Shown here: positions 29,973 through 51,168 of the stretch, one piece after another
How the letters are laid out: each line of letters starts with the position of its first letter
Position numbering within the stretch: the first letter of the stretch is position 1
NCBI RefSeq assembly: GCF_003201205.1
Contig: NZ_QICN01000003.1
Coordinates: 186,001 to 250,000, forward strand
Source of the DNA: Sinimarinibacterium flocculans
GTDB lineage: Bacteria > Pseudomonadota > Gammaproteobacteria > Nevskiales > Nevskiaceae
Length of the DNA stretch: 64,000 bases
Reading direction: 5' to 3'
Program-made: the position numbers and the translations under genes
Notes under the pieces: generated by a model
Seen by the model: the letters and a program-made list of their open reading frames with translations, nothing else
Databases searched by the model: none
What the model was told of the DNA's origin: nothing

Positions 29973-30005
29973 GCGTCGACACGAAACGGGATATTGGGGG
30001 GAACC

Positions 30006-31343: not shown

Positions 31344-31353
31344 GCCTGTGCGC

Positions 31354-32094
31354 ATGTTTCGCTTTCTACGCCCGAGCGGGAGGCGTCAGCTGAATATCAC
31401 CATTGCGGGTGCCACGCACCAGGGCAAGCAGCGCGACCACAACGAAGACGCGTTCGTCGTCATTCCGGCGAGCCTGTCCGCGGCCGTGGCCGACGGCATG
31501 GGCGGCCTCGCGCGCGGCGAAGTGGCGAGCCGCATGGTCGTCGACGTGCTGGCCGAAGCGCTCCAGCAGGGACAGGGCACGGCCGAAGCTCTCCAGGACG
31601 CGCACCGCCGTATCCGCGAGACCAGCATGACCGGCACCGATCGCATGGGCTCGACGGCCGTCGTGCTGACGATCGAGGGCGCCAGGGCCATGCTGCACTG
31701 GGTCGGCGACAGCCGCGCCTATCTCTGGCGCGACGGTGCGCTCAAACAGGTCACCAAGGACCACTCCTTCGTCGAGGAACTGATCGATGCCGGGGCCATC
31801 AGCGCCCACGAGGCCGAAAGCCACCCGAACCGCAACGTGCTCACGCGTGCCGTGGGCATCCGCGACACGATGGAGATCAAGGTCGATGCGGTGAAGGTCG
31901 ACCTGCAGGCCGGCGACTGCGTGCTGCTGTGCACCGACGGCCTGCACGGCTACCTGCCGCAGCCGGCGATCGTCGACTGCCTGAAACGCGGGGGCAGCGC
32001 GAAAGAGATCGTCGAACGCCTGATCGAGCGCACGCTCAGCGACTCCGAAGCCGGGGACAACGTCACGGCCGTCTGCGCAATCGTCGAGGGCTGA
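31354..32094 (+). CDS. PP2C-type Ser/Thr phosphatase
   Basis: PP2C (PPM) phosphatase of about 246 aa without a membrane segment. Metal-binding Asp/Glu motifs are all present: RDHNEDAF, VADGMGG, WVGDSRAYL, LLCTDGLHGYLP and the final EAGDNVTAV. It is expected to reverse the action of the kinases on either side. Start: ATG 31354 is used; a GTG two codons earlier (31348) is equally possible. It ends 6 bp before the second kinase gene and starts 10 bp after the cytochrome gene. Confidence 0.93.
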   Translation: MFRFLRPSGRRQLNITIAGATHQGKQRDHNEDAFVVIPASLSAAVADGMGGLARGEVASRMVVDVLAEALQQGQGTAEALQDAHRRIRETSMTGTDRMGSTAVVLTIEGARAMLHWVGDSRAYLWRDGALKQVTKDHSFVEELIDAGAISAHEAESHPNRNVLTRAVGIRDTMEIKVDAVKVDLQAGDCVLLCTDGLHGYLPQPAIVDCLKRGGSAKEIVERLIERTLSDSEAGDNVTAVCAIVEG

Positions 32095-34473: not shown

Positions 34474-35361
34474 TCAGGAGACTTCGTAGCTCAACAGGTG
34501 CGCCAGACCTTCGTCGGGACGCTCGCCGAGCGCAAACACGCCACGCCCGAGCAAGGTGAAGACCTCGCGGCGGATGTAGACGAACTTGTCGGCATCGGCG
34601 CCCTCTGGACGCACATAGGTGCCGTTGGTGCTCTCGTCCACCAGCGTGTACTTGCCGCGATGCATCTCGATGCGCGCGTGCACGCGCGATGCGAACGGCG
34701 ACGGGACGACGAGACTGCAGCCCTCCTCGCGGCCGATCGTGTACGGCATCTGCTGGGCGGCGATGAGGATGCTGTGTGCCCCATACTTGAGTAACAGGCC
34801 GGTGCTGGCCGGCAACGCCACCTCGCTCGGTGCGATGAAGATCTGCGTGGCTGCCCGGCGGTCCCAGAGCAACTGCACGATCATCAGCGACTGGGTGATG
34901 CCCTTGACCGGTGTCTGGTCGAACAGGCGGACCGAGCCCCGCAATTCCGGCGACAGCAGTGCCGAGGTCGCCTCCGTCGTCAGCACCTGTTCGGCCTTGG
35001 CCATGTCGCACAGGCGCGCAGCGACGTTGACGGCGTCGCCGAAGACATCGTCCTCGCGCGACACGACCGGTCCCAGCGTGAACCCCACCCGGAACTGCAC
35101 CGGCAACTCGCCGTCCTGCCGGGGCTCGCGCGCCTGCCGCTGCACCTCGATCGATGCATGCGCGGCGGCATCGGCATCCGGCAGCTCGCACATGGCGCAA
35201 TCGCCGATGGTCTTGATCAGACGACCGCCGCGCCGGATCGCCGCGTCCGCCACGCGTTCGAGCGCGCCGCGGATCAGGGCCTCGGCGCGCTCGTCACCCA
35301 GTCGTCGATAAAGCGCCGTACTGCCGACGACGTCGGCGAACAGTACGGCTCGTTGCTCCAT
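34474..35361 (-). CDS. class III adenylate/guanylate cyclase fused to an FHA domain
   Basis: Soluble 295-aa protein. Residues 1-165 form a class III cyclase catalytic domain with metal-binding Asp10 (FADVVGST) and Asp54 (KTIGDC), the base-contacting Lys50 and Asp109 (VFGDAV), and transition-state Asn112 and Arg116 (VNVAARL). All catalytic positions are filled. Lys/Asp at the base-specifying sites favour ATP, so cAMP is the likely product. Residues about 200-280 form an FHA domain (TIGREEGCSL, SRVHARIE, STNGTYV) able to bind phosphothreonine. Thus cyclase output could be set by the neighbouring Ser/Thr kinases. A flavoprotein with two cyclic-nucleotide-binding domains lies 13 kb away on the same strand, a plausible target. 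Confidence 0.92.
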   Translation of the reverse strand: MEQRAVLFADVVGSTALYRRLGDERAEALIRGALERVADAAIRRGGRLIKTIGDCAMCELPDADAAAHASIEVQRQAREPRQDGELPVQFRVGFTLGPVVSREDDVFGDAVNVAARLCDMAKAEQVLTTEATSALLSPELRGSVRLFDQTPVKGITQSLMIVQLLWDRRAATQIFIAPSEVALPASTGLLLKYGAHSILIAAQQMPYTIGREEGCSLVVPSPFASRVHARIEMHRGKYTLVDESTNGTYVRPEGADADKFVYIRREVFTLLGRGVFALGERPDEGLAHLLSYEVS

Positions 35362-36163: not shown

Positions 36164-36219
36164 GCTCAGATCCCCTGTTGCCCGCAAAAAGCCTATGCGT
36201 CGCGCCGACATCATAGCGC

Positions 36220-36254: not shown

Positions 36255-36262
36255 TAATCGAA

Positions 36263-36290
36263 GGGCCACACCACTGCCGTGATGTGGCCC
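36263..36290 (-). terminator. candidate terminator of the lipoprotein gene
   Basis: Stem GGGCCACA / TGTGGCCC with a 12-base loop, 33-60 bases downstream of the lipoprotein stop. On the minus strand it is followed by TTCGATTAGA, a poor T-tract. It is the best hairpin to end the upstream transcript. Confidence 0.4.
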
Positions 36291-36322
36291 CCGTACCGCC
36301 TATCCTTCGTGCCGGCGCGCGG

Positions 36323-37444: not shown

Positions 37445-37656
37445 CGCCGTTACCTCTCGATCAGTTGCGTCGCAGCGGTCTGTTCGCTGCGGCTCATTTT
37501 CCCGAGCCTGCCCCGAAACGCCTTCCGTGGCGCGGGCCCGCCAGAACCACAGGCTAGCCGATGCAGCCCTGCGCAGGCGATACCTGGGTCGCAATGGGCG
37601 TCAGCGACAGGGCCTCCCCGCAGGCGCCACTGAGACGCAGGTCACCGTGCGGGCCA

Positions 37657-40600
37657 TCAGTTCTCCACGAACCAGGGCTTGCCCTCTTCGTCCAGGTACA
37701 GCGCCTGCTGCTCTTCGAGTGTGAAGGGCCGCGAACCGATGCGCCCGAAGACGGCGATCTGTCCGCCGGTCTCGTCGACGGCGCGATCCCGGTGCAGGCC
37801 CTCGGACACCGCCAGCGCCGGCCGGTCGGTGCGGCGGCTCGCGATGAGCTGCGGCTTCGGATCAGGTGAGAACCCGTAGAAGCCCGGCTGGGTCTCGGGG
37901 CTCATGAGCTGCACCACCTTGAGGCCCTGGGCGCCATCGGCCACGTAGGCGAACAGCGAGGCATTGGTCGCACCGACCTTCACGTCACGGGCATCCGTGA
38001 TCTGGCCCTCGGCGTTGAACTGCTGGTACAGCAGCGGCTGCTCCGGATTGGTAATGTCGACGATGCCCAGCCCCTCGGCGCCGGCAGCGACGTAGGCGTA
38101 GGTGCGCACGAGATAGACGCGATGCGCGTCGCTGAACGGCACCAGCGCGCCTTCGACCACCCGGGGGCGCTCGGGCTGGGTGACATCGACGGCCTGCAGT
38201 CCTTTGCCGGTGACCGCGAACAGATAGCGGAACTGCACGGCCGTGCCGCGCACGTCCTGCAACGGAATCGTCGTCGCCACCTTCGGCTGCAGCGGATCGG
38301 CGAGATTGAGCACGACGATGCCGGCATCGGCCGCGACGTACACCCAGTCGCCGGCCACGGTCAGGTGGCGTGCGCCGTTGAGGATGCCGCCTTCATTCCA
38401 GGTGAGGGCGCGCTCCAGGAAGTTGTTGCGCGGCTCGCCGTCCGACAGCGTATTGATGTCGACGAGAATCAGCCCTTCCTCGCTGTCGCTGATCAGCGCG
38501 TAGTTGTAGATCGGATGGAACGGCTGTTCCATGTTGATCTCGCGCATCAGCTCACCCTGGTTGCGGTCCGGGTGGATCGGCTGGTTCGACGGCAGGGCGA
38601 CACAGGTCGCATTGCGCGTCTTGACGTGGATGTCCTGGCCCAGCGGCGAGAACGGCGCGGAGATGATGCGCTGCGAGAAGCCCTTGTTGGCGATCGCGTT
38701 GACGTCGTAGACCTCGAAGCCGTCGCTGCCCTGCGCCGCATAGAGGTACTCGCCGCGCAGCTGCAGGCAGTTGACCGCATCGCCCGCCCCGTGGGAGTGC
38801 TCGGTCTCGAGCTCGCGCCCGCGCATCTCGTGCTTGCCGTAGCGCTCCGGATAGGCATAGCGATGCAGGTAGCTGCCGATGACCGCCTGCGGCTCGTCCC
38901 ACTCCGTCACCGTCACGGCCGAAACGCCGCCATCGGTTCCGAGCCAGGCGTTGTAGCCGATGAAGTTCATGAAGTTGGTGCCGTGCAGCAGCAGCTGCGC
39001 CATGATGGCGTTGTTGTCGTTGGCCTTCGACAGATGGCAGTCCTCGCACTGCTTGGTCTCGGTCTTGCGCTCGGTGTGCGCGTAGTGCGGCGCAAAGGCC
39101 TGCGAGGAATAGCCGCTGGCCGCCACCGGCGGCTGCTGGATGTAGATCTTCTCGCGGTTGACGTTGGTCGACGACAGCACCAGCGCGCTCGACGAACGCA
39201 CCGGCGCGATGCGGCCGCCCTTGGCCGGCCCGTGCTTGCCGAGCTGGAACACGTCGTCGCGCGCAACCTGCGGGTTGTAGGTCGCGAAGTTACGCGACTC
39301 GGTGCCGTCGTAGTGCTGGTCCGGCGTCTTCCAGTTGGCCTCGATCGGCAGATGGCAGCCGCCGCAACTCGTCGTCCACGAGGTGTGGCAGGTCACGCAC
39401 ATCATCTCCTCTTCCTTGTGTGCGCGGTCGGCCGGCTTCACGTCCGTGCCCCAGTTCTGCTTGGCCGTGTTCGCCGCCATCGTCTTGGCGCGCGCCGCCT
39501 TCTCGTTGTAGTGCGGGTTGCCCTTGGTCACCGAGTCTTTGACCAAGCTCATCTCCCACTCGAGCCCCTCGGTCACGCTGGAGCGCTGGATCAGCTTGCC
39601 GTTGACCCACTCGAAGCGCAGCTGGCCGAAAGCCGTGCGCATCAGCGACAGGTCGTTGCCGCCTTCGGGCGCTGCCGGGCCGCTGGTCAGCAGGCTCGGA
39701 TAGGCGTCCGCGGTGCCGTGACAGTCCGCGCACTCGATCTCGATCGCCTGCGCGACCTCGCCGTAGATATGACCGTCACCGTGCATGTCCTGCGAGAAGT
39801 GGCAGTCCACGCAATGCATGCCGACGTCGACGTGGATCGACGACATGTGCACAGCTTTCTTGAACTTGTCCGGATCGTCGTCGGAGACGATGTTGCCGTC
39901 CTCGTCGAGCAGGCGGCCCTTGCGGTCGCGCTTGAAGATCGCGCGGAAGTTCCAGCCGTGGCCGTGGTAGTCGGCGAACTGCGTGTCGCGCAGCAGCGGA
40001 TTCATCTCGCTGACCTGCTTGAGGAACTCCGGGTCGCCCCACTTGCCGCGCACCGCAGCGCCTTCGGGATTGCGCTGGTTGATCTTGCGGATCTCGTCGA
40101 AGCTCGGCTTCTTCTCCTCGACCGGCCACATGAACGGCGCGTCGGACTCGTAGTCCCACATCGTGTAGCCGAGGAAGCTGTTCACGAACACGTTCGGCTG
40201 GTGCATGTGGCAGCTCATGCACTGGCTGGTTGGGATCGCCGAGGTGAACTGGTGCTGCAGCGGATGGCCGGAGCGGTTCTTCGGAATCGTCGGATCGGCG
40301 CTCTGCGACAGGCCGGTATGGCCGGCCACGGCATACGGGCCACTGTGGCGCGGATCGCGGTCGTTCGCGTAGACGACGTGGCAGGCGGCACAACCCGAGG
40401 AGCGGTAGTCACCCGGCTGGTCGTTGGTGCCGAGGAACCACATCAGCGGATCGTTCAGGCGCGTCTTGTGGACGTTGAGCACGGGCACCGAGATGCGCAG
40501 GCCGGTACCGGGGCCGCGATTCGACTGGCGCTGGTCGGGACGACCCGGCTCCTCGAGCCGCTGGATCGTGCCGACGACGTTCGGCACCGCCGTCTCGGCG

Positions 40601-41382
40601 AACAGGTTCACGATGTTGCGACCACCGCGCTCGAACACGCGGAAGACGTCACCCGGCGGGGTCGTCTGCCAGCTCGGCAGCGGATAGAGCTTCTCGATGA
40701 CGCCCTTGGCCTTCATGTCCTCGTCGGGCACGACCGGGCCGAGCAGCGTCGTCGCCTCGCCTTCGCGCGAATACGACTCGCCGAGGATGTAGTGCTTGAA
40801 CGGCAGGATGCCGTTGTTGTACGAGGCGCCGCCCCAGAGCATCGCGCCGGTGGCCATGATGCTGCGCTCGGCGGCCTCGATGATCGGCAGGTGGCAGGAG
40901 CCGCAAGCCTCGCGCGCCACGCGGTAGTCGCTCGGATTGACGAAGCGCACGTACTCCGGGCTCTCGCGGTTGAGCAGCGCGTAGCTGTGCTCCGGGTTCG
41001 CCGAGCTGGGCCATTCCCAGGTCTTGGGGAACATCGGCAGCACGTGCGCCTGCGCCAGCATGTCGGCATAGGGGGTGCTGCCCACGTCGAAGCCGTCGGG
41101 CTTCATCACCGTCGCGTTGCCGCCGTGGCAGTCGGTGCAGCCGAGGATCACGCCCGGCTGCCGGTGCATGGTCTTCTGATCCGTTCCGGTATGGCAGGAG
41201 ACGCAGCCGACGCTCTTCGCGTCGGCCACCGCCTGCGCCTGCGAGCGCGGCGCCGGCGGGGCCACCTCGTAGACGATGTCCTGCGGCTTCTCACCGCCGG
41301 CGGCGAGCGCCGGCACATTCGCGAGAGCGGTCATGCTGCCGATCAGTGCGACAGTCAGCTTCATGGCTAGGGCTCTGCTCAT
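37657..41382 (-). CDS. secreted decahaem cytochrome c with C-terminal LVIVD-type propeller
   Basis: 1241-aa exported protein. Signal peptide about 1-28 (ALAA end). Ten CxxCH haem sites at residues 60, 82, 160, 331, 388, 524, 551, 662, 673 and 779. From about 865 to 1190 it holds repeats of the LVIVD type (GEYLYAAQGSDGFEVYDV, DWVYVAADAGIVVLNLADP, YVAAGAEGLGIVDITNPEQP), which form a beta-propeller usually found at cell surfaces. No lipobox, so it is periplasmic or secreted. It is the last gene of the operon, 2 bp after the barrel gene. An alternative ATG at 41364 would shorten it by six residues. Inferred role: outer terminal of an electron conduit. It is not an MtrC/OmcA-type protein by layout. 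Confidence 0.9.
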   Translation of the reverse strand: MSRALAMKLTVALIGSMTALANVPALAAGGEKPQDIVYEVAPPAPRSQAQAVADAKSVGCVSCHTGTDQKTMHRQPGVILGCTDCHGGNATVMKPDGFDVGSTPYADMLAQAHVLPMFPKTWEWPSSANPEHSYALLNRESPEYVRFVNPSDYRVAREACGSCHLPIIEAAERSIMATGAMLWGGASYNNGILPFKHYILGESYSREGEATTLLGPVVPDEDMKAKGVIEKLYPLPSWQTTPPGDVFRVFERGGRNIVNLFAETAVPNVVGTIQRLEEPGRPDQRQSNRGPGTGLRISVPVLNVHKTRLNDPLMWFLGTNDQPGDYRSSGCAACHVVYANDRDPRHSGPYAVAGHTGLSQSADPTIPKNRSGHPLQHQFTSAIPTSQCMSCHMHQPNVFVNSFLGYTMWDYESDAPFMWPVEEKKPSFDEIRKINQRNPEGAAVRGKWGDPEFLKQVSEMNPLLRDTQFADYHGHGWNFRAIFKRDRKGRLLDEDGNIVSDDDPDKFKKAVHMSSIHVDVGMHCVDCHFSQDMHGDGHIYGEVAQAIEIECADCHGTADAYPSLLTSGPAAPEGGNDLSLMRTAFGQLRFEWVNGKLIQRSSVTEGLEWEMSLVKDSVTKGNPHYNEKAARAKTMAANTAKQNWGTDVKPADRAHKEEEMMCVTCHTSWTTSCGGCHLPIEANWKTPDQHYDGTESRNFATYNPQVARDDVFQLGKHGPAKGGRIAPVRSSSALVLSSTNVNREKIYIQQPPVAASGYSSQAFAPHYAHTERKTETKQCEDCHLSKANDNNAIMAQLLLHGTNFMNFIGYNAWLGTDGGVSAVTVTEWDEPQAVIGSYLHRYAYPERYGKHEMRGRELETEHSHGAGDAVNCLQLRGEYLYAAQGSDGFEVYDVNAIANKGFSQRIISAPFSPLGQDIHVKTRNATCVALPSNQPIHPDRNQGELMREINMEQPFHPIYNYALISDSEEGLILVDINTLSDGEPRNNFLERALTWNEGGILNGARHLTVAGDWVYVAADAGIVVLNLADPLQPKVATTIPLQDVRGTAVQFRYLFAVTGKGLQAVDVTQPERPRVVEGALVPFSDAHRVYLVRTYAYVAAGAEGLGIVDITNPEQPLLYQQFNAEGQITDARDVKVGATNASLFAYVADGAQGLKVVQLMSPETQPGFYGFSPDPKPQLIASRRTDRPALAVSEGLHRDRAVDETGGQIAVFGRIGSRPFTLEEQQALYLDEEGKPWFVEN

Positions 41383-41384
41383 GG

Positions 41385-43397
41385 CTACCAGGTCAGCGTC
41401 AGATTGAGGAGGACGGAGTACGGCAACTCGTCGTCGCCGAACAGCGCCTTGTAGCCGTCGCCGGGCAGAAGCACGGCACCGGACGCGCGGAACACCACGT
41501 TCTGCGTGAAGAACGGCCGCCAGATCGTCGCCACCGACAGATCGGTGCCGATGTTGTTGCCCACGTTGGCCTGCTGGCGCGCGGCCTCGATGACCTCGGT
41601 GGTCGCAAAGGCGATCTGGTTGACGTTGGTCGAGATGCGGAACTGCGGCGTCAGGTCGAAGTCCGCACCGACACCGAGAATCACGGTGCCGGGATTGGTG
41701 AAGTTCGACTGCCCCTCTTCCTTGGAACTACGCAAGGTGTTGAGGATGCCGTTGCGGCCGGACAGTGCGACGCCGCCGCCACCGATCAGCGGCACGTTCT
41801 GGCGCACCCAGAAGCTGGTGTCGGCGCCGGCGAACAGCGCGTTCTCGAACACCGCATCGAAGCCGTTCTCGACGTCGTCGTAGGGATCGTCGTCGCCTGA
41901 GGCGTACAGCGCGGTGAAGCGCAGGCGCCGCCAGTCGAAGTCGAAGCCGACTTCGGTCGCCAGCAGGAAGGCGCGGATGTCGGTCGCGCGGTCGACGAAC
42001 ACACCGCGGTCCTGGTCGCCGAACAGCAGGTAGGCCGATCCGGTGAAGTTCAGGCGGCCGAAGTGGCCTTCGCCGTTGAGGCCGGCGTAGTACGCGTCGT
42101 AGTTGCGCGGCTTCTCGATGCCCAGCGACGCCGGACGCTCGATGAACCCGTTGTTGTTGAAGTACAGGCCTTCGTCGCCTTCGCGATTGCGGTTGTAGAG
42201 CAGCACCGCCTCGCTGACCATGCCCAGGACCGGGAAGTCCTGCCAGTAGAAATTGGTGACGAAGACGTCGTCCTTGCGCAGCGGCTTGCCGAGATCGTTC
42301 AGGCCGGAATTGGTGTCCTTCTCGACGCGGCGGAACCAGGCGACGTTGTAGAGGTAGATGTTGTTGTTGCGGTTGCCGAACAGGCGGATGCCGAGCTGCT
42401 CGTCGCGGAACAGGAAACCGCGGAAGTCGGCGTTGAACGGCTGGATACCGACGCGCAGCGAATCGAAGTCGTAGCGCTTGGTCCAGTCCCACAGATGCTT
42501 GTCGATGAACAGGTCCTGCACGCCGATGTGCTGGTCGTCGCGCGTATCGCCCTTGGTCGGATCGATGAACAGCGCGCGGTTCTGCTCGGCAGTCACGCGG
42601 TTGACGTTGAAGACCGGCGTGAAGCGGAACTCCCAGTCCGGCGGCATGAAGGTCGTGTTGCCCTTGTACAGCACCAGGCCGACGCCGAGATTCTGCTGCA
42701 GGATGAGCTGGTCGCCGTCACCGATCAGGCCCGGGGCGCCGGGACGGTTCTCGCCCTGCGGCGCCACCGGCGTCGGCAGGCGCCGCGGTTCGACGACGGT
42801 GTCGGAGATGACCGTGGCGTTGAAGAACCAGTCCTTGCCGATCACCGGCCGGTCGGCCTTGAGCGTGTTCTGGTTGTACGGGTCGTACCACGGATAGTCG
42901 GTGACCCCGAGCGCGCGCGTGAGCTGCCAGCGATCCGGCACGACCTCCTTGCGGAACTCGGCATCGGCGCCGGGCTTGGCCACCGGCTTGAGCCCGCTGG
43001 CGCGGTTGGGCGAGAACGGCACGCGCTGACCGCGCGCCGGAGCACCCGGCTCGGCCCGCTCGCCGCTGGCATCCGGACGCGTGTAGTCCGGCTGGCCGGG
43101 ACGACGACGCCCCTGGACGGCCGGCTGCGTCGCGGCAGCAGGTACCGGCTTGGCCGGCGCCGGCGCCTCTGCGCGGGCCGGTGCCTCGCCGGGGCGGCGA
43201 CGGTCGACCCCGATGCTCGGTGCCGGCAGGGGCGCCGGCCGCGGCGTGGCCGTCGGCTGCGGCAGTACGTCGGCGGGCAGCTGGGTGTCACGCTCGGCGC
43301 GATCGCCCGGGCGCCGGCGTTCCTCCTGCGCCTGCGCGCCCACGGCGCACAGCGAGAGCAGCAGGACCGCGCAGATCGAGAGGCGCTTAGAGACCAT
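41385..43397 (-). CDS. large outer-membrane beta-barrel with RRRPG-repeat N-terminal tail
   Basis: 670-aa exported protein with signal peptide 1-24 (AQAQ). Residues 25-150 form a Pro/Arg-rich disordered tail with three RRRPG motifs at 27-31, 66-70 and 97-101. From about 160 on it has alternating hydrophobic strands with acidic loops, ending in LNLTLTW, an aromatic C-terminal outer-membrane signal. The size fits a barrel of 18 or more strands. DWEFRFTPVFNVN and similar strands recall uncharacterised outer-membrane proteins next to multihaem cytochromes. The start overlaps the HbpS-like gene by 11 bp. Inferred role: porin sheath through which haem proteins pass electrons, as MtrB does, although I see no MtrB signature CxxC. 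Confidence 0.82.
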   Translation of the reverse strand: MVSKRLSICAVLLLSLCAVGAQAQEERRRPGDRAERDTQLPADVLPQPTATPRPAPLPAPSIGVDRRRPGEAPARAEAPAPAKPVPAAATQPAVQGRRRPGQPDYTRPDASGERAEPGAPARGQRVPFSPNRASGLKPVAKPGADAEFRKEVVPDRWQLTRALGVTDYPWYDPYNQNTLKADRPVIGKDWFFNATVISDTVVEPRRLPTPVAPQGENRPGAPGLIGDGDQLILQQNLGVGLVLYKGNTTFMPPDWEFRFTPVFNVNRVTAEQNRALFIDPTKGDTRDDQHIGVQDLFIDKHLWDWTKRYDFDSLRVGIQPFNADFRGFLFRDEQLGIRLFGNRNNNIYLYNVAWFRRVEKDTNSGLNDLGKPLRKDDVFVTNFYWQDFPVLGMVSEAVLLYNRNREGDEGLYFNNNGFIERPASLGIEKPRNYDAYYAGLNGEGHFGRLNFTGSAYLLFGDQDRGVFVDRATDIRAFLLATEVGFDFDWRRLRFTALYASGDDDPYDDVENGFDAVFENALFAGADTSFWVRQNVPLIGGGGVALSGRNGILNTLRSSKEEGQSNFTNPGTVILGVGADFDLTPQFRISTNVNQIAFATTEVIEAARQQANVGNNIGTDLSVATIWRPFFTQNVVFRASGAVLLPGDGYKALFGDDELPYSVLLNLTLTW

Positions 43398-45534
43398 CGC
43401 AAACCCCCTGTTCGTCCGAATCCAGGAACGGGGTCTGCGGACAGATCACGTAGCGCAGGTTGACGCCGAAACCGGCGGGGGCGAGCTGGTCGGCCCGGAC
43501 CGGGATCGGCGCATTGTTGATGCTGCCGGGCCCAAGCTCCTTGCCGACCTGGTCGATCGCGAGAAACGGCAGGAAGTCATCCTGTTCGAGACCGTCGCCC
43601 GACAGGCCGATGGCGCCGATCAGCTCACCACCGCGATAGATCGGGAAACCGCCGGCGAACAGCGTGATGCCGTTGCGCAGTTCCGGCACATCGTTCACCT
43701 GCTCCGGCGCACCGCCGAGGATGTCGCTGATCGGGTTGTACCCGGTGCAGCCGGTACCGACCGACGGATCGCCCGGATCGGCCGGCAGGTCGGTGGGCGC
43801 AGCGCCGAGCACGAAGGCGAGATGGCGGATGATCGCGTTGTAGACCAGATCCAGTTCGAGCCCGGTCGAGAAGATGCTCCATTCGCCCACCGGCTTGGAC
43901 AGCGGCCCGGGCGGGTTGCCCTCGACGTCGTCCGGGTAGAACGGCCGGCCGATGTTGCCGATCGCGCGCGTCGAGAACGCGTTGTCGCCGAACTCGATGT
44001 CGAGGAAGTTGCGGAAGTTGTCCGCGTATTGACCGATGTCCTCGCGACGCAGCGTCGGCGGATCCGGCAGGACGCTGCCCGGCGCCGGCGGGCCGACGTT
44101 GACGTATTCGGCCGGCGGCAGCGCTGCGAGCTTCGCGGCACCGCCGGTCTTGGAGAAGAACAGGGCGCTGCGCGCCTTCTGCGCGTTGACGTCGATGGCG
44201 TCGACGAGCGCGTCGCGGGTGCGTGCGGCACCGACGATGTCGCCATTGACGTCGACGATGACCAGATGGATGCCCGCCGGCGAGCCCAGCGGCTTGCGGA
44301 CTTGGCTGCGCGTGCGGTTGGCCAGCGCGACGGACTTCACCAGCAGCGCCTCGACCTCGGCCTGCGTGAGACCGTTGGCGCCGGCACCCGCCTGCGCCGG
44401 AAAGCGGTTCTGGTTGTTCTGATCGACGATCACGAAGCCGTCGACGGCGGCCAGCCCCGGCGCATCGGTGACGGTATCGGCGGCGCGGATGCCGGAGTCC
44501 GCCAGACCGAAGCGCGTGCCGGCAGCGACCTGTGCGTTGGCATACCCGCGAATGGCGATCAGGCCGTCGCCGTCGTCGAGCGGCGGCAGGGGGTCGAAGG
44601 CCGGCGTCTGCTGGCCCAGGAGCTGATCCAGCGTCAGCAGATCGTCGAAATCCACGTCGGCGAAGCGCAGCGTCTTGCCCTCGACGGTGATCACGTCGGC
44701 GCGCCGGTCGCGCGGCGCGGCATAACCGAAGGTGGCCGCGGTGGCGATGATCTCGTCGATGTTGCCGTTGGGGTCCGTGTCGAGATCGTTGTCGATGACG
44801 ACCTTGTCGACGCCGTAGACGCCATCGGCGATCACGCCGACGGCACCGACGGTCACGCCGGCCTTGAACAGTGGCAGGCCGCCGGGATCGGCAGCGAAGC
44901 CGATCGCCGAACGATGCGGGCCCGGGTCGGGGCCGATGCCGTTGAAGCGACGCGAGATGTCCGAGCACGGCAGCTGGCTGATCTGCACACCGAACAGCGG
45001 GCCGCCGGGCGTGCTGCCCTCGCCCGGGTTGAAGTTCTCCTGGATGATCTGCCCGGCGGTACGCGAGGTGAACGCGTTGCCTTCGGAGGAGAAGTACATC
45101 GAGGTCAGCGCCTTGGCGAGCGCGCCGAGTTCCGACGGCACGATGCCGACGTTGTCGACACCGCCGCTGACGAGCGCACCGGTGCGACGATCGATGCCGG
45201 AAGTGATGTTGATCAGCGCCGGCGCACCGGGCATGCGGTAGGCGGCGAGGATGTTGCCGACGCGGTCGGTGACGACGAAGGTCGCCGGCCGGTTGCGCGC
45301 ACCGGCCTCGGCGACGCCCTGCGCGATGATGCGCTGCACGTCCGCCACTTCGAGGCGTTGCGGATTGTCGGTCTGACAGAAACCGGTGCACGGCGCCTGC
45401 CCCGGCACCAGCCCGATGCCGGTGACGTTGTCAGGTCGATCTCCCCCGGAACAGCTCCCCAGTAACAACGCGGTGATGGCCCCCGCCAGCGCTGCCCCCG
45501 AAGACTTACTGCCCCATTTCCAGCGTCTGCCCAT
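43387..45534 (-). CDS. lipoprotein with two HbpS/GlcG-like (haem-degrading family) domains
   Basis: 715-aa lipoprotein with lipobox LLLGSC, Cys28. Two divergent copies of the HbpS/GlcG (DUF336) fold are visible. The N-terminal copy, about 55-300, has VQRIIAQGVAEAGA, ATFVVTDRVGNILAAYRMPG and GVTVGAVGVIADG. The C-terminal copy, about 400-660, has HLVIVDVNGDIVGAART, ALFFSKTG and the diagnostic ITLFAGGFPIYRGGELIGAIGLSG. HbpS binds haem and senses redox stress in Streptomyces. Here a haem-handling or electron-transfer-complex role is inferred from the cytochrome neighbours. Start ATG 45532-45534 with AGGGAG upstream, overlapping the FHA-decahaem gene by 29 bp in another frame; it also overlaps the barrel gene by 11 bp. 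Confidence 0.85.
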   Translation of the reverse strand: MGRRWKWGSKSSGAALAGAITALLLGSCSGGDRPDNVTGIGLVPGQAPCTGFCQTDNPQRLEVADVQRIIAQGVAEAGARNRPATFVVTDRVGNILAAYRMPGAPALINITSGIDRRTGALVSGGVDNVGIVPSELGALAKALTSMYFSSEGNAFTSRTAGQIIQENFNPGEGSTPGGPLFGVQISQLPCSDISRRFNGIGPDPGPHRSAIGFAADPGGLPLFKAGVTVGAVGVIADGVYGVDKVVIDNDLDTDPNGNIDEIIATAATFGYAAPRDRRADVITVEGKTLRFADVDFDDLLTLDQLLGQQTPAFDPLPPLDDGDGLIAIRGYANAQVAAGTRFGLADSGIRAADTVTDAPGLAAVDGFVIVDQNNQNRFPAQAGAGANGLTQAEVEALLVKSVALANRTRSQVRKPLGSPAGIHLVIVDVNGDIVGAARTRDALVDAIDVNAQKARSALFFSKTGGAAKLAALPPAEYVNVGPPAPGSVLPDPPTLRREDIGQYADNFRNFLDIEFGDNAFSTRAIGNIGRPFYPDDVEGNPPGPLSKPVGEWSIFSTGLELDLVYNAIIRHLAFVLGAAPTDLPADPGDPSVGTGCTGYNPISDILGGAPEQVNDVPELRNGITLFAGGFPIYRGGELIGAIGLSGDGLEQDDFLPFLAIDQVGKELGPGSINNAPIPVRADQLAPAGFGVNLRYVICPQTPFLDSDEQGVCDGL

Positions 45535-47140
45535 TTGCAAGTTCTCCCTTGAACTTGCTCATCGTCAGATCCACCGCCTGATGAAAGCGGTGGCAGTCGA
45601 TGCAGGTGGATTGGATACTTGCGGACGAATCTACCCCGCCATGGCAGGCACGACAAGACTCGATCTGCGGTAACAACAGGTCATTTGAGTCCCCGCTCAC
45701 ACTTGCCGCGTGGCAACTGTCGCAGGCAACCCACTGATGCGGTTCGTGCGTGAAACGCGCTTTCGGCATCCACGTCTTGCGCAGCAGCGGCTCGCGCACG
45801 CGCGCGAACTGATTCTCTTTCGCCCTGTCGATCTCGTGGCACTTCGCGCAGACGCGCCGCTCGAATACTTCCTCGATCTGGTCCGGTGCACTGCCCGGTT
45901 CGCCGCGGTCGGCGCGCTCGCCTGGCCGGCGCCGGTCGGAGACCGGATCCGGCTCGGTTGCCGCCACCGGTGTCATGCCGACCGCGCTCTCGAGCAGCGT
46001 ACGCACCGCATCGGTATCGCCATGCGGCAACCGGAACGGCAGCCCGCCGACGTCGACGTCGAGCTGGTGACAACGCTGGCAGTCGGTCTCGAAACGCATC
46101 GGCTCGAAGCCGACCGCACCCGGGCCGGGACGATGACAGTCGTCGCACTGCAGCACCTCCGGCCCGTCCGGACCACGCACGCCGCGGGCATCCAGGTGCA
46201 GGTCGTGCGGATAGATCAGGCCGGAGACGTCCTCGGTGCTCTCGTCGAGCAGGGCGCGCAGCGACTGCGGACCGGTTTCGGTCATCGTCGTCGCGGTGAC
46301 GCGGAATGCCGGATGGCCGTCGGCGAAGTCGAAGACCGCAGGCGCGTCGCGCAGCGCGGCGAAATCCTGCGGCCGCTCGTGACAGTCCGCACACAGGGCC
46401 GGATGCTGCGGCAGCACGGCGTGGGTGTCGCCGTGCTCGAAGTGGCAGCTCGCGCAGGTCTGGCCGTCGAGACCCGAATCGTGCATCGACTGCGCGTCGT
46501 CGCCGTGATGGGTGACCGCGGCGTGGCACTGCAGGCAGGACTCGTCGCGCACACGCACGAACAGCCGATCGTGACAGGCGCCGCACTCGACACCGAACTG
46601 CAGATGCGCGTTGCTGATCTGCCCGGACGTCCACCAGCGGTCGCTCGGCATCCAGTCGCCGACCCAGGCGGGCGGCGACACCGCGCGCAGGATCAGCGGC
46701 ACGACCAGGCACACGAGCAGCACCAGCACGGCGCCGATCACCGCCGGCCGCCGCTGACGCCAGCCCGCTTCGCCGAGCGTCGTCGTCGCATCGTCGCCGG
46801 CGCCGGCCTGGTCGGGATCGCGTTCGCGCACCTCGAGCATCAGGCCACCGCTTTCGGTGATCGAGACACGGACGCGGTGACCGCCGACCTGCAGTTCGTC
46901 CCCGGGCGCCAGCACCGCCGTGCGCTGCCCGACGAGACCGTTGACGATGACGTCGACGGTGCTCAGACAATCGAGCTGCAGCGTCAGGCTCGTCGCCGGC
47001 GTCAGGCGCAGGTGATGCAGCGCGACCAGCAGACCGGGAAGCTGGATCGTGTTGTCGGTCGCGCGGCCGATGGTGATGGCGCCGCTGACCGTCTGTTCCG
47101 TCTTCGCGCCGTCCGGCGCATGGCGTCTGACCAGAATCAT
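45506..47140 (-). CDS. inner-membrane FHA-TM-decahaem cytochrome
   Basis: 544-aa protein without a signal peptide. Residues 1-105 resemble an FHA domain (TIGRATDNTIQLPG, VALHHLRL, VIVNG); the usual Ser before the His is Ala40. One membrane helix spans 132-154. Residues 186-517 carry ten CxxCH sites at 186, 202, 229, 250, 332, 354, 431, 473, 496 and 513, so the haem part is periplasmic and the FHA part cytoplasmic. An RRRPG motif at 403-407 matches those in the barrel two genes downstream. Such an FHA-multihaem fusion is not a family I can name. Inferred role: tethered periplasmic electron carrier whose cytoplasmic end docks a phosphoprotein. It starts 13 bp after the cytochrome b-like gene. 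Confidence 0.88.
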   Translation of the reverse strand: MILVRRHAPDGAKTEQTVSGAITIGRATDNTIQLPGLLVALHHLRLTPATSLTLQLDCLSTVDVIVNGLVGQRTAVLAPGDELQVGGHRVRVSITESGGLMLEVRERDPDQAGAGDDATTTLGEAGWRQRRPAVIGAVLVLLVCLVVPLILRAVSPPAWVGDWMPSDRWWTSGQISNAHLQFGVECGACHDRLFVRVRDESCLQCHAAVTHHGDDAQSMHDSGLDGQTCASCHFEHGDTHAVLPQHPALCADCHERPQDFAALRDAPAVFDFADGHPAFRVTATTMTETGPQSLRALLDESTEDVSGLIYPHDLHLDARGVRGPDGPEVLQCDDCHRPGPGAVGFEPMRFETDCQRCHQLDVDVGGLPFRLPHGDTDAVRTLLESAVGMTPVAATEPDPVSDRRRPGERADRGEPGSAPDQIEEVFERRVCAKCHEIDRAKENQFARVREPLLRKTWMPKARFTHEPHQWVACDSCHAASVSGDSNDLLLPQIESCRACHGGVDSSASIQSTCIDCHRFHQAVDLTMSKFKGELANGQTLEMGQ

Positions 47141-47153
47141 GTCCGGTTCGCGC

Positions 47154-48149
47154 TCACCAGTAGAGGAAGACGGTCACGATGTGCACCAGCAGCGCCGCCA
47201 GCAGCGCGACGGTCAGCGGCACGTGCACGTACAGCCAGACGGCAAGGCGCGAACGCAACGTGATGTCGCGGTTGACCTTGTCGAGCAGCGCCTTGCGCTT
47301 GGCGATCGTCTGCAACAGTTTCTGCAGATTCTCGGAAGCCTTGTCGCCGCCCCGCGCCGCGCCGGCGGCGAAGATCTGATCGGCCACGAAGGCGATCGTC
47401 GCCTGGCGACCGCCGCGTTGCGGCATCGCGCCGGCGGCTGCCTGCGCCTGCAGCTGCGTGCGCTTGACCTTGAAGAACTGGTCCAGGCCACCGGCCTCTC
47501 CGGGGGACCGGTAGCGGCCGCTGAGCTGCTCCCATGCGCTGCCGCCGATGCGTACCTTGCCGACCGAGCGCGCGACCACCGCATGCGTCTCCGGATCGAT
47601 GCGGTCGGCCAGCGACAGCGCGGACTCGTTGAGCTGGTGGATCTCCTGCAGCATCGCGCGGAATTCCATCTCGTTGCGGTTAGCGGTGACCTGCCGCGGC
47701 AGCACCGAGTACGCGAGAATGCCGTAGATGCCGCTGACGATGACCAGCATCATCAGCACCCAGGCCAGCGTATGGACGTTGAGCCCGAGCTGGAATCCGG
47801 TGTGCAGCGTGGCGACCACGATCAGCGACAGACCCAGGTACACGTGTGCCGACACCCAGGCCTGCACCGGCGCGCGGCCTTCGCGGAACTGGCGCTTGCG
47901 CACGCCGAACCAGGCCAGCCAGACGATCAGCGCCGCGCCCAGCGTGCCCAAGCCATAGCCGAGCCAGGTGCTGCCGCTGCTGCCTTCGATCGGGTCGTGC
48001 CAGGCATAGAGCACGAACGACAGCGCACACAACGCAACCGCCACCTTCAGGTAGAAGGCGTTGCGATAGACGAGAAAGGACTCGTGCCGTGCGGGACCGC
48101 TGCGCTCGCCGCCGCGCAGCCGGGCGAACCACGCGCTAACGCCCGCCAC
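47154..48149 (-). CDS. membrane protein with di-haem cytochrome b-like His pairs
   Basis: 331-aa membrane protein with about five helices (near 33-50, 61-83, 97-120, 125-150 and 303-331) and a long soluble loop of about 150 residues between the fourth and fifth. His102 and His116 lie 14 residues apart in one helix, and His309 and His323 lie 14 apart in the last helix. This 14-residue spacing is that of the bis-His ligands of the two haems in bc1/b6f cytochrome b. I infer a di-haem b-type quinol- or quinone-reactive subunit, but the family is not recognised. Start: GTG 48147-48149, overlapping the flavoprotein gene by 14 bp, with GAGG upstream. Confidence 0.75.
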   Translation of the reverse strand: MAGVSAWFARLRGGERSGPARHESFLVYRNAFYLKVAVALCALSFVLYAWHDPIEGSSGSTWLGYGLGTLGAALIVWLAWFGVRKRQFREGRAPVQAWVSAHVYLGLSLIVVATLHTGFQLGLNVHTLAWVLMMLVIVSGIYGILAYSVLPRQVTANRNEMEFRAMLQEIHQLNESALSLADRIDPETHAVVARSVGKVRIGGSAWEQLSGRYRSPGEAGGLDQFFKVKRTQLQAQAAAGAMPQRGGRQATIAFVADQIFAAGAARGGDKASENLQKLLQTIAKRKALLDKVNRDITLRSRLAVWLYVHVPLTVALLAALLVHIVTVFLYW

Positions 48150-50556
48150 GCGACAGCACCTCGAAGAACTCCTCGGGGCCGACGCGGATCGCCGCACCGG
48201 TCGGGCAGGCCTGCACGCAGGCCGGGCCGGCCTCGCGCGGACCGCACATGTCGCACTTCACCGCCTTCTTGATCGCACCCTTGGGGTAGTCGTGGATGTC
48301 GCTGCCGGGCGCAGGACCCTTGCCGAACAGCAGCCAGCGCCACAGGCTCGGCGCCTCGGGCGACTGCACGCCCATCTGGATCACGCCGTAGGGACAGTTG
48401 CGCTCGCAGTTGCCGCAACCGATGCAGGTGTTCTGGATGAAGACCTCGCCGTTGGGCGAGCGGTGGATCGCATCGGGCGGGCAATCCTTCATGCAGTGCG
48501 GATGCTCGCAATGCCGGCACGAGGTCGGCACGTGCAGATTGTCGAAGGTCGCTCCGGCCTCGCGGTCGAGCCGCGAAACGTTGCCGTGCGTCGCCGCGCA
48601 GGCCTTCTCGCACTGGTCGCAGCGGATGCACAGCGCCTCGTCGATCAGCAGGGCATCCGTGGCTTCGCCGAGACCTTCGCCGAGCAGGAAGTGCATCCGC
48701 GCGCCGCGCTCGGGGTCGCGCTCCATCAGCAGGCGCTGCTCGATCTGGTCGCGGAAGCGCGCCTGCACCGTCGCCTTCATCTCCGGATTCTGCGCGAGCA
48801 GTTCGAGGAAGGGCTTGGCGTCGAGGCGGATCGTCTCGGTCTTGATCGCCGCGGTGGCGGTCTGGCTGCGCGACGAGCCGGCGATCACGTCGAGTTCGCC
48901 GAAGTACTGACCGGCAGCGTGGTACTGCAGCACCACGTCGCGCGTGCCCACGCGCGCCGACAGCGTCACCGATCCGCTACGGATCAGGTGGATGTGCTCG
49001 GACGCATCGCCCGGGTTGTAGATCGCTTCCTTGGCCTTGAACTGGCACAGCTGCGCCGTATCGACGATGGCCTTGAGCTGCGCGTCCTCGGCTCCGGGCA
49101 CCAGATACCGCTCCAGCGCGCGCTGGGTGAACACGCGGTCGACGTACGCGCGGGCGCGGTCATTGGCGCTGATCAGCTTGAGCATCGCGCGACGCGGCAC
49201 CTCGATCAGCACGCAGTCCTTGCCGGCGATGACCGCGGCCGAGCGCGGGCGCCCGGAGATCAGCGCCATCTCGCCGAAGATGCGGCCCGCCTTGATCGTG
49301 CGCAGCTTTGCCGGGTCGGCGGGATCGAGCTGCACGCCCACCTCGCCGGAGACGATGATGAACACCGAGTTGCCGTAGTCGCCCTCCTTGTACAGCGTCT
49401 CGCCGATCGGCGGCGAGAAGATGCGGCTCTCGAGCAGGAACTCGCGCAACTGCAGGCGGTTCATCGCCGCCAGCACCGGCGAGCGGCGGTTGAGCACGTC
49501 GAGGAAGGCCTCGACATCGGGGTTGGCGGAGAACGCCGAGAATTTCTCGCGCAGGATCGGCTCGTCCGCCGGGGCCACCGGGCGGCCGCAGATGAACTCG
49601 ACGACCTCGTAGCCCTGGTTCATCGCCTGCTTGATCAGCGGGTAGCCCGCCAGCGCTCCGATGATGTAGAGCCCGGGCACGTTGGACTCGTAGGTCGGCG
49701 AGACCGCGGGCACCGCGGCCGGGTCCTGGTTCGGGAACTGGATGCCGCAGGACTCGACGAAGGCGCGCTGCGGCGTGGCGCCCAGGCGCGCGATGATGCG
49801 ATCGCAGGGCACGTCGACCGCGCCCTCCTTGGAATTGAGCCGCAGCAGCATCGGCTTGCCGCTGGCGTGGTCCGCCTCGAGCTTCTCCACGACCTCCGGC
49901 GAGCTGTTGTAGTGACAGCGCACCTTGCCCTGCTCGATGGCGTTGAGAATCAGGCTGTTGTTGCCGTCCTTGGCGCGCGAGAACTCGTTCTTGCGGTTGA
50001 CGATGTGCACCGTGTTGTTGCGCGCCAGCGCCACGGCATTCTCGATCGCGGCATCGCCGGCGCCGATGACGACGATGGTCTCGCCCTTGTATTCGTCCGG
50101 GTCGTCGAGCTGGTACTGGATGTTCGGCAGATCCTCGCCGGGCACACCCATCTTGCGCGGGTTGCCCTGCACGCCGATGCCGAGCACGACCTTCTCGGCG
50201 AGCACAGTGTCGCCGGACGCCATCGTCAGCGCGAAACCGGCGTCCTGCTTCTCGATCTTCACGACCTCCGCACGATGGCGGACGTTGACCTTCAGGCGGG
50301 CCGTGTCGGTGTTCCAGACGTCGAGAATCTTCTCGCGCGTACCGGCGTCGAAGCCGGTCGACGCGCGCAGCGGCAGCACGTTGGGCTCGGCCATGACGTG
50401 CTTGCCCTTCTGGTACCGGAAGATCGTGTTCGACAGGTGCGGCTGCGCCTCGAGCAGCACGTGCGAGTCGCCCATTTCCGCTGCACGGCATGCGGCCGAG
50501 AGTCCTCCCGGCCCGGAACCCACGATGGCGATACGGTAGCTTTCGGCTGTCGACAT
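48136..50556 (-). CDS. flavoprotein fused to two cyclic-nucleotide-binding domains and a 4[4Fe-4S] ferredoxin
   Basis: 806-aa cytoplasmic fusion. Residues 8-330: FAD/NAD(P) pyridine nucleotide-disulfide oxidoreductase fold with FAD motif GSGPGG (13-18) and NAD(P) motif VVIGAGDAAIE. It lacks the CxxC of thioredoxin reductase. Residues about 365-490 and 500-620: two CRP-type cyclic-nucleotide-binding domains, each with a phosphate-binding cassette (FGEMALISGRPRSA and FGELDVIAGSSRSQTA; Glu and Arg kept in both). Residues about 640-795: HybA/DmsB-like ferredoxin part with four Cys clusters (CIRCDQC, CRHCEHPHC, CIGCGNC, CDMC...CVQACP). Inferred: NAD(P)H-linked electron entry or exit, gated by cyclic nucleotide. 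First gene of the operon. ATG 50554-50556 matches the Rossmann N-terminus. Confidence 0.92.
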   Translation of the reverse strand: MSTAESYRIAIVGSGPGGLSAACRAAEMGDSHVLLEAQPHLSNTIFRYQKGKHVMAEPNVLPLRASTGFDAGTREKILDVWNTDTARLKVNVRHRAEVVKIEKQDAGFALTMASGDTVLAEKVVLGIGVQGNPRKMGVPGEDLPNIQYQLDDPDEYKGETIVVIGAGDAAIENAVALARNNTVHIVNRKNEFSRAKDGNNSLILNAIEQGKVRCHYNSSPEVVEKLEADHASGKPMLLRLNSKEGAVDVPCDRIIARLGATPQRAFVESCGIQFPNQDPAAVPAVSPTYESNVPGLYIIGALAGYPLIKQAMNQGYEVVEFICGRPVAPADEPILREKFSAFSANPDVEAFLDVLNRRSPVLAAMNRLQLREFLLESRIFSPPIGETLYKEGDYGNSVFIIVSGEVGVQLDPADPAKLRTIKAGRIFGEMALISGRPRSAAVIAGKDCVLIEVPRRAMLKLISANDRARAYVDRVFTQRALERYLVPGAEDAQLKAIVDTAQLCQFKAKEAIYNPGDASEHIHLIRSGSVTLSARVGTRDVVLQYHAAGQYFGELDVIAGSSRSQTATAAIKTETIRLDAKPFLELLAQNPEMKATVQARFRDQIEQRLLMERDPERGARMHFLLGEGLGEATDALLIDEALCIRCDQCEKACAATHGNVSRLDREAGATFDNLHVPTSCRHCEHPHCMKDCPPDAIHRSPNGEVFIQNTCIGCGNCERNCPYGVIQMGVQSPEAPSLWRWLLFGKGPAPGSDIHDYPKGAIKKAVKCDMCGPREAGPACVQACPTGAAIRVGPEEFFEVLSRGGR

Positions 50557-50608
50557 GCGCCCCCCGACGAAGGCCGACACCTTATCCGAAGGCGGTCATC
50601 CGATGCGA

Positions 50609-50653
50609 GCGTTGCGCACGTCGAACTGTTGACTGCGTCAAATTGCGCAACGC
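50609..50653. promoter_or_regulatory. nested palindromes upstream of the redox operon
   Basis: In the 116-bp gap before the flavoprotein gene, GCGTTGCGCA (50609-50618) and TGCGCAACGC (50644-50653) form a perfect 10-bp inverted repeat. Between them lies TTGACTGCGTCAA (50629-50641), a perfect palindrome with a 3-base centre that resembles the half-sites of FNR/Dnr-type CRP-family operators but with one base less spacing. It could be an operator, or a terminator/attenuator hairpin after ssb. No clear -10/-35 pair found. Confidence 0.5.
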
Positions 50654-50672
50654 CGCCGCTGCACGGGGCCCG

Positions 50673-51149
50673 TCAGAACGGGATGTCGTCGTCCTCGAAC
50701 GGCGCATCCATGCCCTGTGCCGGCGCGGCCGCCGGTGCGGCGCGCGATGCCGGCGCCGCCTGACGACGCGGCTCGTAGCCGCCGCCGTCGCCACCCATCG
50801 GCGCCGAACCGCCGCCACGCCCGTCGAGCATCTGCATGTCGTTGACCATGATCTCGGTGGTATAGCGGTCGATGCCGTCCTTCTCCCACTTGCGCGTGCG
50901 CAGGCTGCCCTCGACGTACACCTTCGCACCCTTCTTCAGGTACTGGCCGGCGATCTCGGCGAGCTTGCGGCGGAAGACGACGTTGTGCCACTCCGTCATC
51001 TCCTTCTTCTCGCCGGACTGCTTGTCGGTCCAGCTCTCGGTCGTCGCGAGCGTGACGTTGCAGACGGCATCGCCATTGGGGAAATAGCGCACCTCGGGAT
51101 CCTTGCCGAGGTTGCCGATGAGAATGACCTTGTTGACTCCGCGCGCCAT
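50673..51149 (-). CDS. ssb: single-stranded DNA-binding protein
   Basis: SSB, 158 aa: OB fold at about residues 4-108 starting [17 protein letters not shown], a Gly/Pro/Ala-rich linker, and the acidic tip DDDIPF that recruits replication and repair partners. The start at 51147-51149 matches the family; a longer frame is not supported. It lies 19 bp after the MFS gene. uvrA is divergent beyond that, a common ssb-uvrA neighbourhood in which this MFS gene is often interposed. Confidence 0.97.
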
Positions 51150-51168
51150 GGTGATCTCCGTGGTTCGT

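Follow-up and report, generated by a model that had tools for sequence, protein, structure and literature searches.

The 64,000-nucleotide stretch of Sinimarinibacterium flocculans DNA analysed here, referred to as the window, carries a set of seven genes (g1-g7) that we consider a candidate for a two-membrane electron conduit. Six of these genes (g1-g6) were confirmed on the minus strand between positions 37657 and 50556, and the seventh (g7) lies apart from them on the opposite strand (Table 1). From the coordinates, it can be seen that g1 and g2 overlap by 14 bp, g3 and g4 by 29 bp and g4 and g5 by 11 bp, and that gaps of 13 bp and 2 bp separate g2 from g3 and g5 from g6. An earlier note on this DNA, made from the sequence alone, had given the same six genes with the same strand, overlaps and gaps, and all of these data match the coordinates. 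When we counted the CXXCH haem motifs in the window proteins, we found ten each in g3 and g6 and none in g1, g2, g4 and g5. A promoter and terminator scan of positions 36200-51300 did not yield signals above those of shuffled sequences.

Table 1. Genes of the candidate conduit and of its surroundings (positions refer to the window)
Feature	Position	Strand	Basis
g1, NAD(P)H/FAD oxidoreductase with two cyclic-nucleotide-binding domains and a predicted 4x[4Fe-4S] ferredoxin domain, 806 aa	48136..50556	-	Pfam, cysteine alignment
g2, predicted inner-membrane di-haem b protein, about five hydrophobic segments	47154..48149	-	motifs, alignment, hydrophobicity
g3, FHA domain, hydrophobic segment and predicted periplasmic decahaem cytochrome	45506..47140	-	Pfam FHA and cytochrome c3/c7; 10 CXXCH
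g4, HbpS-like lipoprotein	43387..45534	-	PF03928, 67.0 bits (gathering score 25), 3 stretches
g5, predicted outer-membrane beta-barrel, AlgE/OprD fold	41385..43397	-	AF2 model, Foldseek, VIA-align
g6, decahaem cytochrome with C-terminal LVIVD beta-propeller, 1241 aa	37657..41382	-	10 CXXCH; Pfam LVIVD and cytochrome c3/c7; AF2 propeller
g7, cytochrome c554-type, seventh core gene	29994..31343	+	PF13435, 39 bits; co-occurrence with g6
Ser/Thr protein kinase beside g7	28566..29972	+	PF00069, 158 bits
PP2C-type protein phosphatase beside g7	31348..32094	+	PF13672
Second Ser/Thr protein kinase	32101..34380	+	PF00069
Class III nucleotide cyclase with FHA domain	34474..35361	-	PF00211, PF00498
Small exported-looking gene	35426-36214
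Small exported-looking gene	36323-37444

The conservation of the gene set was followed in 107 loci (27 loci and 80 named loci), four of which are duplicates, leaving 103 distinct loci. The named loci are the best 80 of at least 593 confirmed g6 stretches (one gene may yield more than one stretch), and because the best-scoring stretches were taken they are biased to close relatives. The duplicates are still contained in the match counts given for 107 loci, in the lipobox counts, in the distance correlations, in the residue counts of the FHA and cyclic-nucleotide-binding domains and in the shuffle comparison of the RRxPG motif. Two loci, L068 and L069, are copies within one genome. The automatic starts of the open reading frames (ORFs) often lie too far upstream, so that the numbers given for the lipobox and for g5 motifs are only approximate, and the contig titles 'Mycobacteriaceae', 'Candidatus Marinimicrobia' and 'Bordetella parapertussis' of metagenome-assembled genomes (MAGs) may reflect mis-binning or mislabelling.

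Here, we found all six genes in 72 of the 103 distinct loci. The order g1-g6 on one strand is kept in 61 of them, nine carry g1 behind g6 and two are rearranged or split. Another 31 distinct loci are short of a gene, and a contig or fetch edge can explain this for 26. The gene set is not a chance assembly. Whether the six genes stay together across taxa was a check proposed in the earlier note, and they do so in these 72 loci and in two phyla. The description as a six-gene operon was right in that the six genes are kept together, but the core set is larger: g7 had been overlooked, together with the kinase, phosphatase and cyclase genes around it.

A relative of g6 is present in 17 of 61 relatives. 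In samples of the class and of the phylum, 13 of 369 and 11 of 398 genomes have it (the window genome is counted in all three sets). We also found it in 26 of 247 genomes of a phylum that was taken as Acidobacteriota from the Vicinamibacteria title of locus L133, although the g6 of this locus (66%) and its gene order are proteobacterial in appearance. In 15 loci read from this sample, g6 is about 42-57% identical. Four of them (L175-L178) carry g1-g7 complete and in order, L174 breaks off behind g4, and the rest are incomplete or split, or have only g5 and g6 within the stretch. The gene set would thus be old or often transferred. There are also 13 plasmid records with g6 (12 of Sphingobium and one of Sphingopyxis), two of which are typed conjugative. 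For one of these two, pMSHV of Sphingobium herbicidovorans (L156), the other conduit parts are annotated beside g6.

For g1, an ATG start was assumed, and an alternative GTG at position 50580 is possible. Its Pfam matches comprise pyridine-nucleotide-disulphide oxidoreductase (PF13738/PF07992), PF00027 in two stretches and PF13247 (45.9 bits, cut-off 26.2) with other Fer4 domains. YpdA was the best NCBIfam match of the oxidoreductase part, with a score of 132 bits, which is below its cut-off. All 13 aligned sequences share 16 cysteines in the ferredoxin part, a number that would allow four [4Fe-4S] clusters. The gene lies directly upstream of g2, for which the only Pfam match was a sub-threshold one to b561 (17.6 vs 30.1 bits) and for which no sequence relatives were found in the PDB up to an E-value of 0.1. 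Two WX3HX13H motifs were detected in all 52 distinct g2 ORFs, and this pattern occurs in none of the other six families. An SGXXG motif was present in 51 of the 52 ORFs, and this pattern is common in the other families too. The pair of WX3HX13H motifs is the pattern of a predicted two-haem b protein. All 69 distinct g3 ORFs carry ten CXXCH motifs. There is a single long hydrophobic segment in the g3 protein (residues 129-161) with the FHA domain N-terminal to it, and since a basic stretch precedes this segment, the FHA domain would be cytoplasmic and the haems would be periplasmic.

The lipobox pattern of g4 was found in 56 of 84 homologous ORFs, and seven cysteines are invariant in 16 of 16 sequences. 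For g5, Pfam gave nothing but a sub-threshold alginate-export match (19.4 vs 25.2 bits) and the PDB gave no sequence relatives up to an E-value of 1. The AF2 model of this protein (mean pLDDT 75) predicts 18-19 strands, and the nearest solved folds in VIA-align are AlgE (Z 27.2, root-mean-square deviation 2.8, 361 residues aligned) and OprD-type channels. Among the 50 VIA-align entries listed for g5, there was no MtrB. Ten ordinary CXXCH motifs are present in all 96 distinct g6 ORFs. The N-terminus of g6 resembles a signal peptide, and a lipobox pattern was found in 8 of 100 ORFs (a rough count). Thus, of the 'secreted decahaem protein' of the earlier note, the decahaem part was borne out but secretion was not established. 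A PDB search with g6 gave one sequence relative, which was not significant (E 0.7). A viral origin of g5 or g6 was rejected, since PHROGs gave no match. Another protein with several stretches resembling the g6 propeller is encoded in the window's own genome (G000:C2:34182-35624).

The seventh gene surfaced when neighbouring ORFs were clustered, and tblastn detected it in 71 of the 103 distinct loci. A distance of about 6.3 kb separates it from g6 in the window. Four CXXCH motifs were present in 54 of 55 g7 ORFs (the remaining one is cut), and the relatives carry one CX4CH motif in addition. When we compared the 61 relatives, g6 and g7 were each found in 17 genomes and 16 of these were shared (Fisher p 1.4e-12, a value that overstates independence, since the genomes compared are themselves relatives). 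G384, which is 79% complete and carries g6 only, and G376, which carries g7 without g6, are the two exceptions. Strong g1 matches (E <1e-100) gave an identical 16-1-1 split, with weaker partial g1 matches in six other genomes left uncounted. All 31 genomes behind named g6 loci also contain g7; two of these repeat the relatives G396 and G387, and some had g7 already in view.

One of these exceptions bears on the modular structure of the system. In G376, a genome of the window's genus, g1, g2, g3 and g7 are kept and another barrel and a 5-haem cytochrome replace g4-g6. The same alternative was found in G091, which belongs to another family (68% identity for the 5-haem protein, 48% for the barrel) and which also carries a second g7-like 4-haem protein. 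The similarity between g5 and the variant barrel is weak (30 bits), and a search for the 5-haem protein of G376 in the window's genome gave no match. Among the 369 class genomes, the variant 5-haem cytochrome had five matches, two at 59-68% identity and three at 39-40%; the latter three may be a different protein. In the same genomes, g1 was detected 17 times (E up to 1e-60), 13 times together with g6. Of the genomes with g1 and without g6, G214 and G367 end at a contig edge after g5, G091 holds the alternative and G028 is unassigned. Protein distances of g1, g2 and g3 correlated pairwise with rho values of 0.60-0.70, above all shuffles, and values of 0.52 and 0.43 were obtained for g6-g7 and g4-g5. 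The g1-g4, g2-g4 and g3-g4 correlations were not above the highest shuffle. From the exchange in G376 and G091 and from the distance correlations, we read g1-g3 and g7 as a shared, fixed inner platform and g4-g6 as an exchangeable outer part.

A short motif, RRxPG, recurs in proteins of both halves. In the window, g3 carries RRRPG at residues 403-407, where a periplasmic linker joins haem 6 to haem 7, and three RRRPG copies (residues 27-31, 66-70 and 97-101) lie in an N-terminal tail of g5 that was modelled with low confidence. Among distinct ORFs, RRxPG was found in 44 of 69 for g3 and in 42 of 87 for g5, the other five families having it in at most four ORFs each. With the duplicates included, 47 of 72 g3 and 44 of 89 g5 ORFs compare with 0.7 and 2.4 in shuffled sequences (the g5 figures are approximate since some of these ORFs have over-long starts). 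The motif could let inner and outer parts bind one common partner.

The Glu/Arg pair of the phosphate-binding cassette is a cyclic-nucleotide-binding motif, and a Ser/Arg pair forms the phosphothreonine pocket of FHA domains. In the first cyclic-nucleotide-binding module of g1, Glu and Arg are both kept in 13 of 13 sequences, and in the second module Glu is kept in 13 of 13 and Arg in nearly all of the 13. A stricter pattern for the first module matches 45 of 73 ORFs only. For the FHA pocket of g3, we found Ser in 9 and Arg in none of the 47 readable stretches (72 ORFs), and in the window the two positions are Ala-Leu. The built-in signalling domains of the earlier note are therefore retained for the cyclic-nucleotide-binding modules, which keep their key residues, but not in the same way for the FHA domain. 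Phosphothreonine signalling via g3 is unsupported and, because the pocket is mostly lost, the FHA domain may be a docking domain.

In MtrCAB, MtoAB and PioAB, electrons enter via a quinol dehydrogenase (CymA and others). The window set shares with these systems the combination of a barrel with decahaem cytochromes (PMC6295460), and it differs from them in that its barrel is predicted to be of the AlgE type and its decahaem proteins stay below the MtrA/DmsE cut-off. Membership in the MtrA/DmsE family was rejected for g3 (TIGR03508, 20.7 bits vs a cut-off of 192.2) and for g6, for which no such match was listed. OmcA/MtrC membership of g6 was also rejected, with no TIGR03507 match listed and PF22113 at 14.5 bits vs a cut-off of 30.

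The closest published features are those of PCC4 (He et al., 2017, PMC5566968), which combines a porin with cytochromes of 4, 5 and 10 haems. Its inner-membrane protein has five helices, two WX3HX13H motifs and an SGXXG motif. Subgroup II additionally encodes an iron-sulphur protein of pfam13247 upstream of this membrane protein (PMC5566968). Both motif types recur in g2, PF13247 is found in the upstream g1, g3 has ten haem motifs and g7 four. The variant of G376 and G091 comes closer still, since its barrel is accompanied by 5-, 4- and 10-haem cytochromes and thus by all three haem counts. Unlike PCC4, the window set lacks a 5-haem cytochrome and has instead the decahaem g6 with its LVIVD propeller and an HbpS-like lipoprotein, and the iron-sulphur, FAD (flavin adenine dinucleotide) and cyclic-nucleotide-binding domains are fused in g1; this comparison was made by published features. 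Hence, the inner half of the window set together with g7 fits the PCC4 features and the outer half does not. PCC3 shares the membrane-protein motifs of g2 and was rejected on haem numbers, since its cytochromes have a median of 34 and 21 haems and none that large is encoded here (PMC5566968).

In eleven 'group 1' conduits from the Sterkfontein karst, described in 2026, a large decahaem cytochrome lies beside a porin with about 20 strands, and seven of these conduits have a ferredoxin-NADP reductase in their vicinity; of the 36 conduit-bearing genomes of all groups in that work, 21 are Gammaproteobacteria or Acidobacteriota (PMC13264449). The window set resembles this description by g6 (3.7 kb) beside a barrel of 18-19 predicted strands and by g1 in the operon. 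The 'group 1' cytochrome gene is 4-5 kb long, and here the comparison was made by description. The section of that account dealing with these conduits has no name for them and includes no g2, g4 or g7 parts, no modularity and no signalling domains (PMC13264449). Very probably, 'group 1' is the same system as g1-g7. The statement of the earlier note that the subunit make-up differs from known systems was thus too strong, because g1, g2, g3 and g7 match published PCC4 features and because the karst group answers the description.

A Methylobacter conduit of 2026 (PMC13322032) is likewise a cluster of conserved order in aerobic bacteria, and it differs by an MtrA-family decahaem protein, an MtrB/PioB-family porin and monohaem proteins. 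In the open-licence literature, we found no paper joining 'FHA domain' and 'multiheme', and the matches to 'LVIVD' and 'heme' were judged to be unrelated from their titles and the starts of their abstracts. About 60,000 bacterial genomes were surveyed for multihaem clusters in 2024, and the supplements of that survey may list the window cluster (PMC11475568). Taken together, the outer half (g4-g6) is a hardly described variant within the porin-cytochrome kind.

From the domains, the haem motifs, the conservation of the gene set and the predicted barrel fold, we infer an electron path and its direction. Our leading reading, which we consider probable (roughly 0.66), is that g1-g7 together specify a porin-cytochrome type of electron conduit across both membranes; for its direction, net outward flow is slightly preferred. 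In the cytoplasm, g1 would transfer electrons from NAD(P)H via FAD to four [4Fe-4S] clusters, and binding of cyclic nucleotides would be a probable control. The electrons would cross the inner membrane via the two b haems of g2, perhaps with quinone exchange, and would enter the periplasm on the ten c haems of g3, which appears to be anchored in the inner membrane. There, g7 probably relays them to g5 and g6, and the barrel together with g6, aided by the g4 lipoprotein, would pass them to an oxidant that is located at the outer membrane or outside it. The exchangeable outer part probably sets the substrate. With outward flow, the conduit would let bacteria that are mainly heterotrophic dispose of surplus electrons or reduce metals, and this is our first choice, if only slightly. 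The trans-envelope conduit outlined in the earlier note is supported in its list of parts by the g1 cysteines, the g2 motifs, the haem motifs of g3 and g6, the predicted g5 barrel and the joint occurrence of the genes in two phyla, but for the direction of flow and a surface position of g6 we, too, can only infer.

Several points weigh against this reading. The nearest folds of g5 are solute channels, and an AlgE-type barrel of 18-19 strands is narrower than that of MtrB. The barrel was modelled as a single protein. For g6, the lipobox is mostly lacking and the protein may be periplasmic rather than outside. The whole g6 model has a mean pLDDT of 63.6 with low confidence in the haem part, so that a route between the haems cannot be read from it. 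Some loci lack genes despite room for them (g4 in L098 and L109, g3 in L077, g1-g3 in L105), and g1 does not adjoin g2 in L068. PCC4 is described by He et al. as lacking an extracellular cytochrome (PMC5566968). Finally, the window's own genome encodes RuBisCO, which also bears on the direction of electron flow.

The same conduit might run inward, with a donor outside the cell, be it Fe(II), Mn(II), reduced humics or a cathode, supplying electrons to haem b, quinone and, via g1, NAD(P)+. Inward flow has been proposed for PCC4, which occurs in Fe(II) oxidizers (He et al., 2017, PMC5566968), and one g6 locus (L087) is titled as the Haliea MAG 'Biocath_Gamma_022'. The RuBisCO gene of the window's genome also speaks for this direction. 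However, this genome is the only one of the 17 g6-positive relatives with RuBisCO, which was found in 7 of 16 g6-negative relatives (controls picked from 44 without lineage matching, in a small sample of related genomes). This distribution does not speak for an uptake of electrons that serves CO2 fixation, and a link to Calvin-cycle autotrophy is unsupported. In addition, many of the named hosts are aerobic heterotrophs. Inward flow appears somewhat unlikely to us, with outward flow only slightly ahead.

The barrel fold and a similarity of g6 have to be weighed for another scenario, in which the system is a dedicated reductase of one soluble oxidant (for instance an oxyanion like selenite or tellurite, or iron in a ferric chelate). 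In this case, g6 would be the catalytic protein and g5 the substrate channel. The Geobacter Ext clusters extHIJKL and extMNOPQS resemble the window set in combining a porin, several multihaem cytochromes and a b-type cytochrome, and loss of the porin ExtI impairs selenite and tellurite reduction (PMC5877670, PMC6148476). A partial match of g6 to ExtM of the selenite/tellurite operon and the likeness of g5 to the solute channels AlgE and OprD point the same way. The ExtM match (NF040943) reached 70.8 bits, far under the cut-off of 800, and ExtM membership of g6 was rejected. The Ext clusters also differ by rhodanese and Rieske proteins and by a 12-haem ExtM, and the passages on them describe no fused NAD(P)H/ferredoxin protein. 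All g6 haem motifs are of the ordinary type and no catalytic haem was identified among them, with the distal ligands left unmapped. Taking these points together, we regard a soluble-substrate reductase as unlikely. Still far less likely is a redox sensor without respiratory function, in which the cyclic-nucleotide-binding and FHA domains would report the outside redox state to the kinase, phosphatase and cyclase proteins. The two cyclic-nucleotide-binding domains of g1, the FHA domain of g3 and the location of g7 in a kinase-g7-phosphatase-kinase block with the cyclase-FHA gene adjoining would suit a sensor, and a PP2C match was present in 20 of the 103 distinct loci. On the other hand, most FHA domains have lost the Ser/Arg pair of the pocket, matches to the second kinase and to the cyclase-FHA gene were seen in only 3 of 107 loci each, and twenty c haems plus 4x[4Fe-4S] exceed what a sensor would need.

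Together with g7, the genes around it (positions 28566-35361) may make up a signalling island that is linked to the conduit, and the order g7-PP2C-kinase recurs in L154 and L049. The two small genes between the cyclase-FHA gene and g6 gave no Pfam match, and among the 107 loci relatives of them were seen in L046 only. Other clusters carry additional genes or deviate in structure. In ten loci (L074-L076, L080, L081, L089, L093, L104, L114, L146), which are mostly titled Alphaproteobacteria, a small secreted-looking protein of 149-217 residues is in most cases encoded between g3 and g4. A membrane protein, which we take to resemble the haem exporter CcmB, flanks the cluster in L062, L063, L085, L120, L136, L141 and L144 (L063 and L144 are one place). 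L181 (G643) of the Acidobacteriota sample holds a divergent version, with a g3 lacking the FHA domain (403 residues, 10 CXXCH) and a first gene that starts with iron-sulphur and cyclic-nucleotide-binding parts. On pMSHV, the cluster is split and its two halves diverge; it is accompanied there by ShlB/FhaC two-partner secretion genes and by genes for a CHASE2 protein and a large hypothetical protein.

The genes described here belong to a widespread and modular family of candidate conduits, and the window holds a complete copy. Our wider proposal is a tentative one that may well turn out to be wrong. It says that this conduit is fed straight from the NAD(P)H pool via a cyclic-nucleotide-gated flavo-ferredoxin and not from quinol as in Mtr, Pcc and Mto, that it has a fixed inner platform with exchangeable ends, and that it has spread by transfer through many, probably hundreds, of species of Pseudomonadota and Acidobacteriota that are not regarded as electroactive. 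Spread by transfer is suggested because copies lie on Sphingobium plasmids, among them pMSHV, which is typed conjugative. Since named isolates (among them Parahaliea maris, Limnobacter alexandrii, Stagnimonas aquatica and Sphingobium herbicidovorans) carry g6, the question is testable in culture. If the proposal is true, a cyclic-nucleotide-controlled entry of electrons from NAD(P)H would be an unusual feed for such a wire, the combination of one invariable inner platform with outer parts that can be swapped would reveal where the choice of substrate is made, and extracellular electron transfer would be no speciality of metal respirers.

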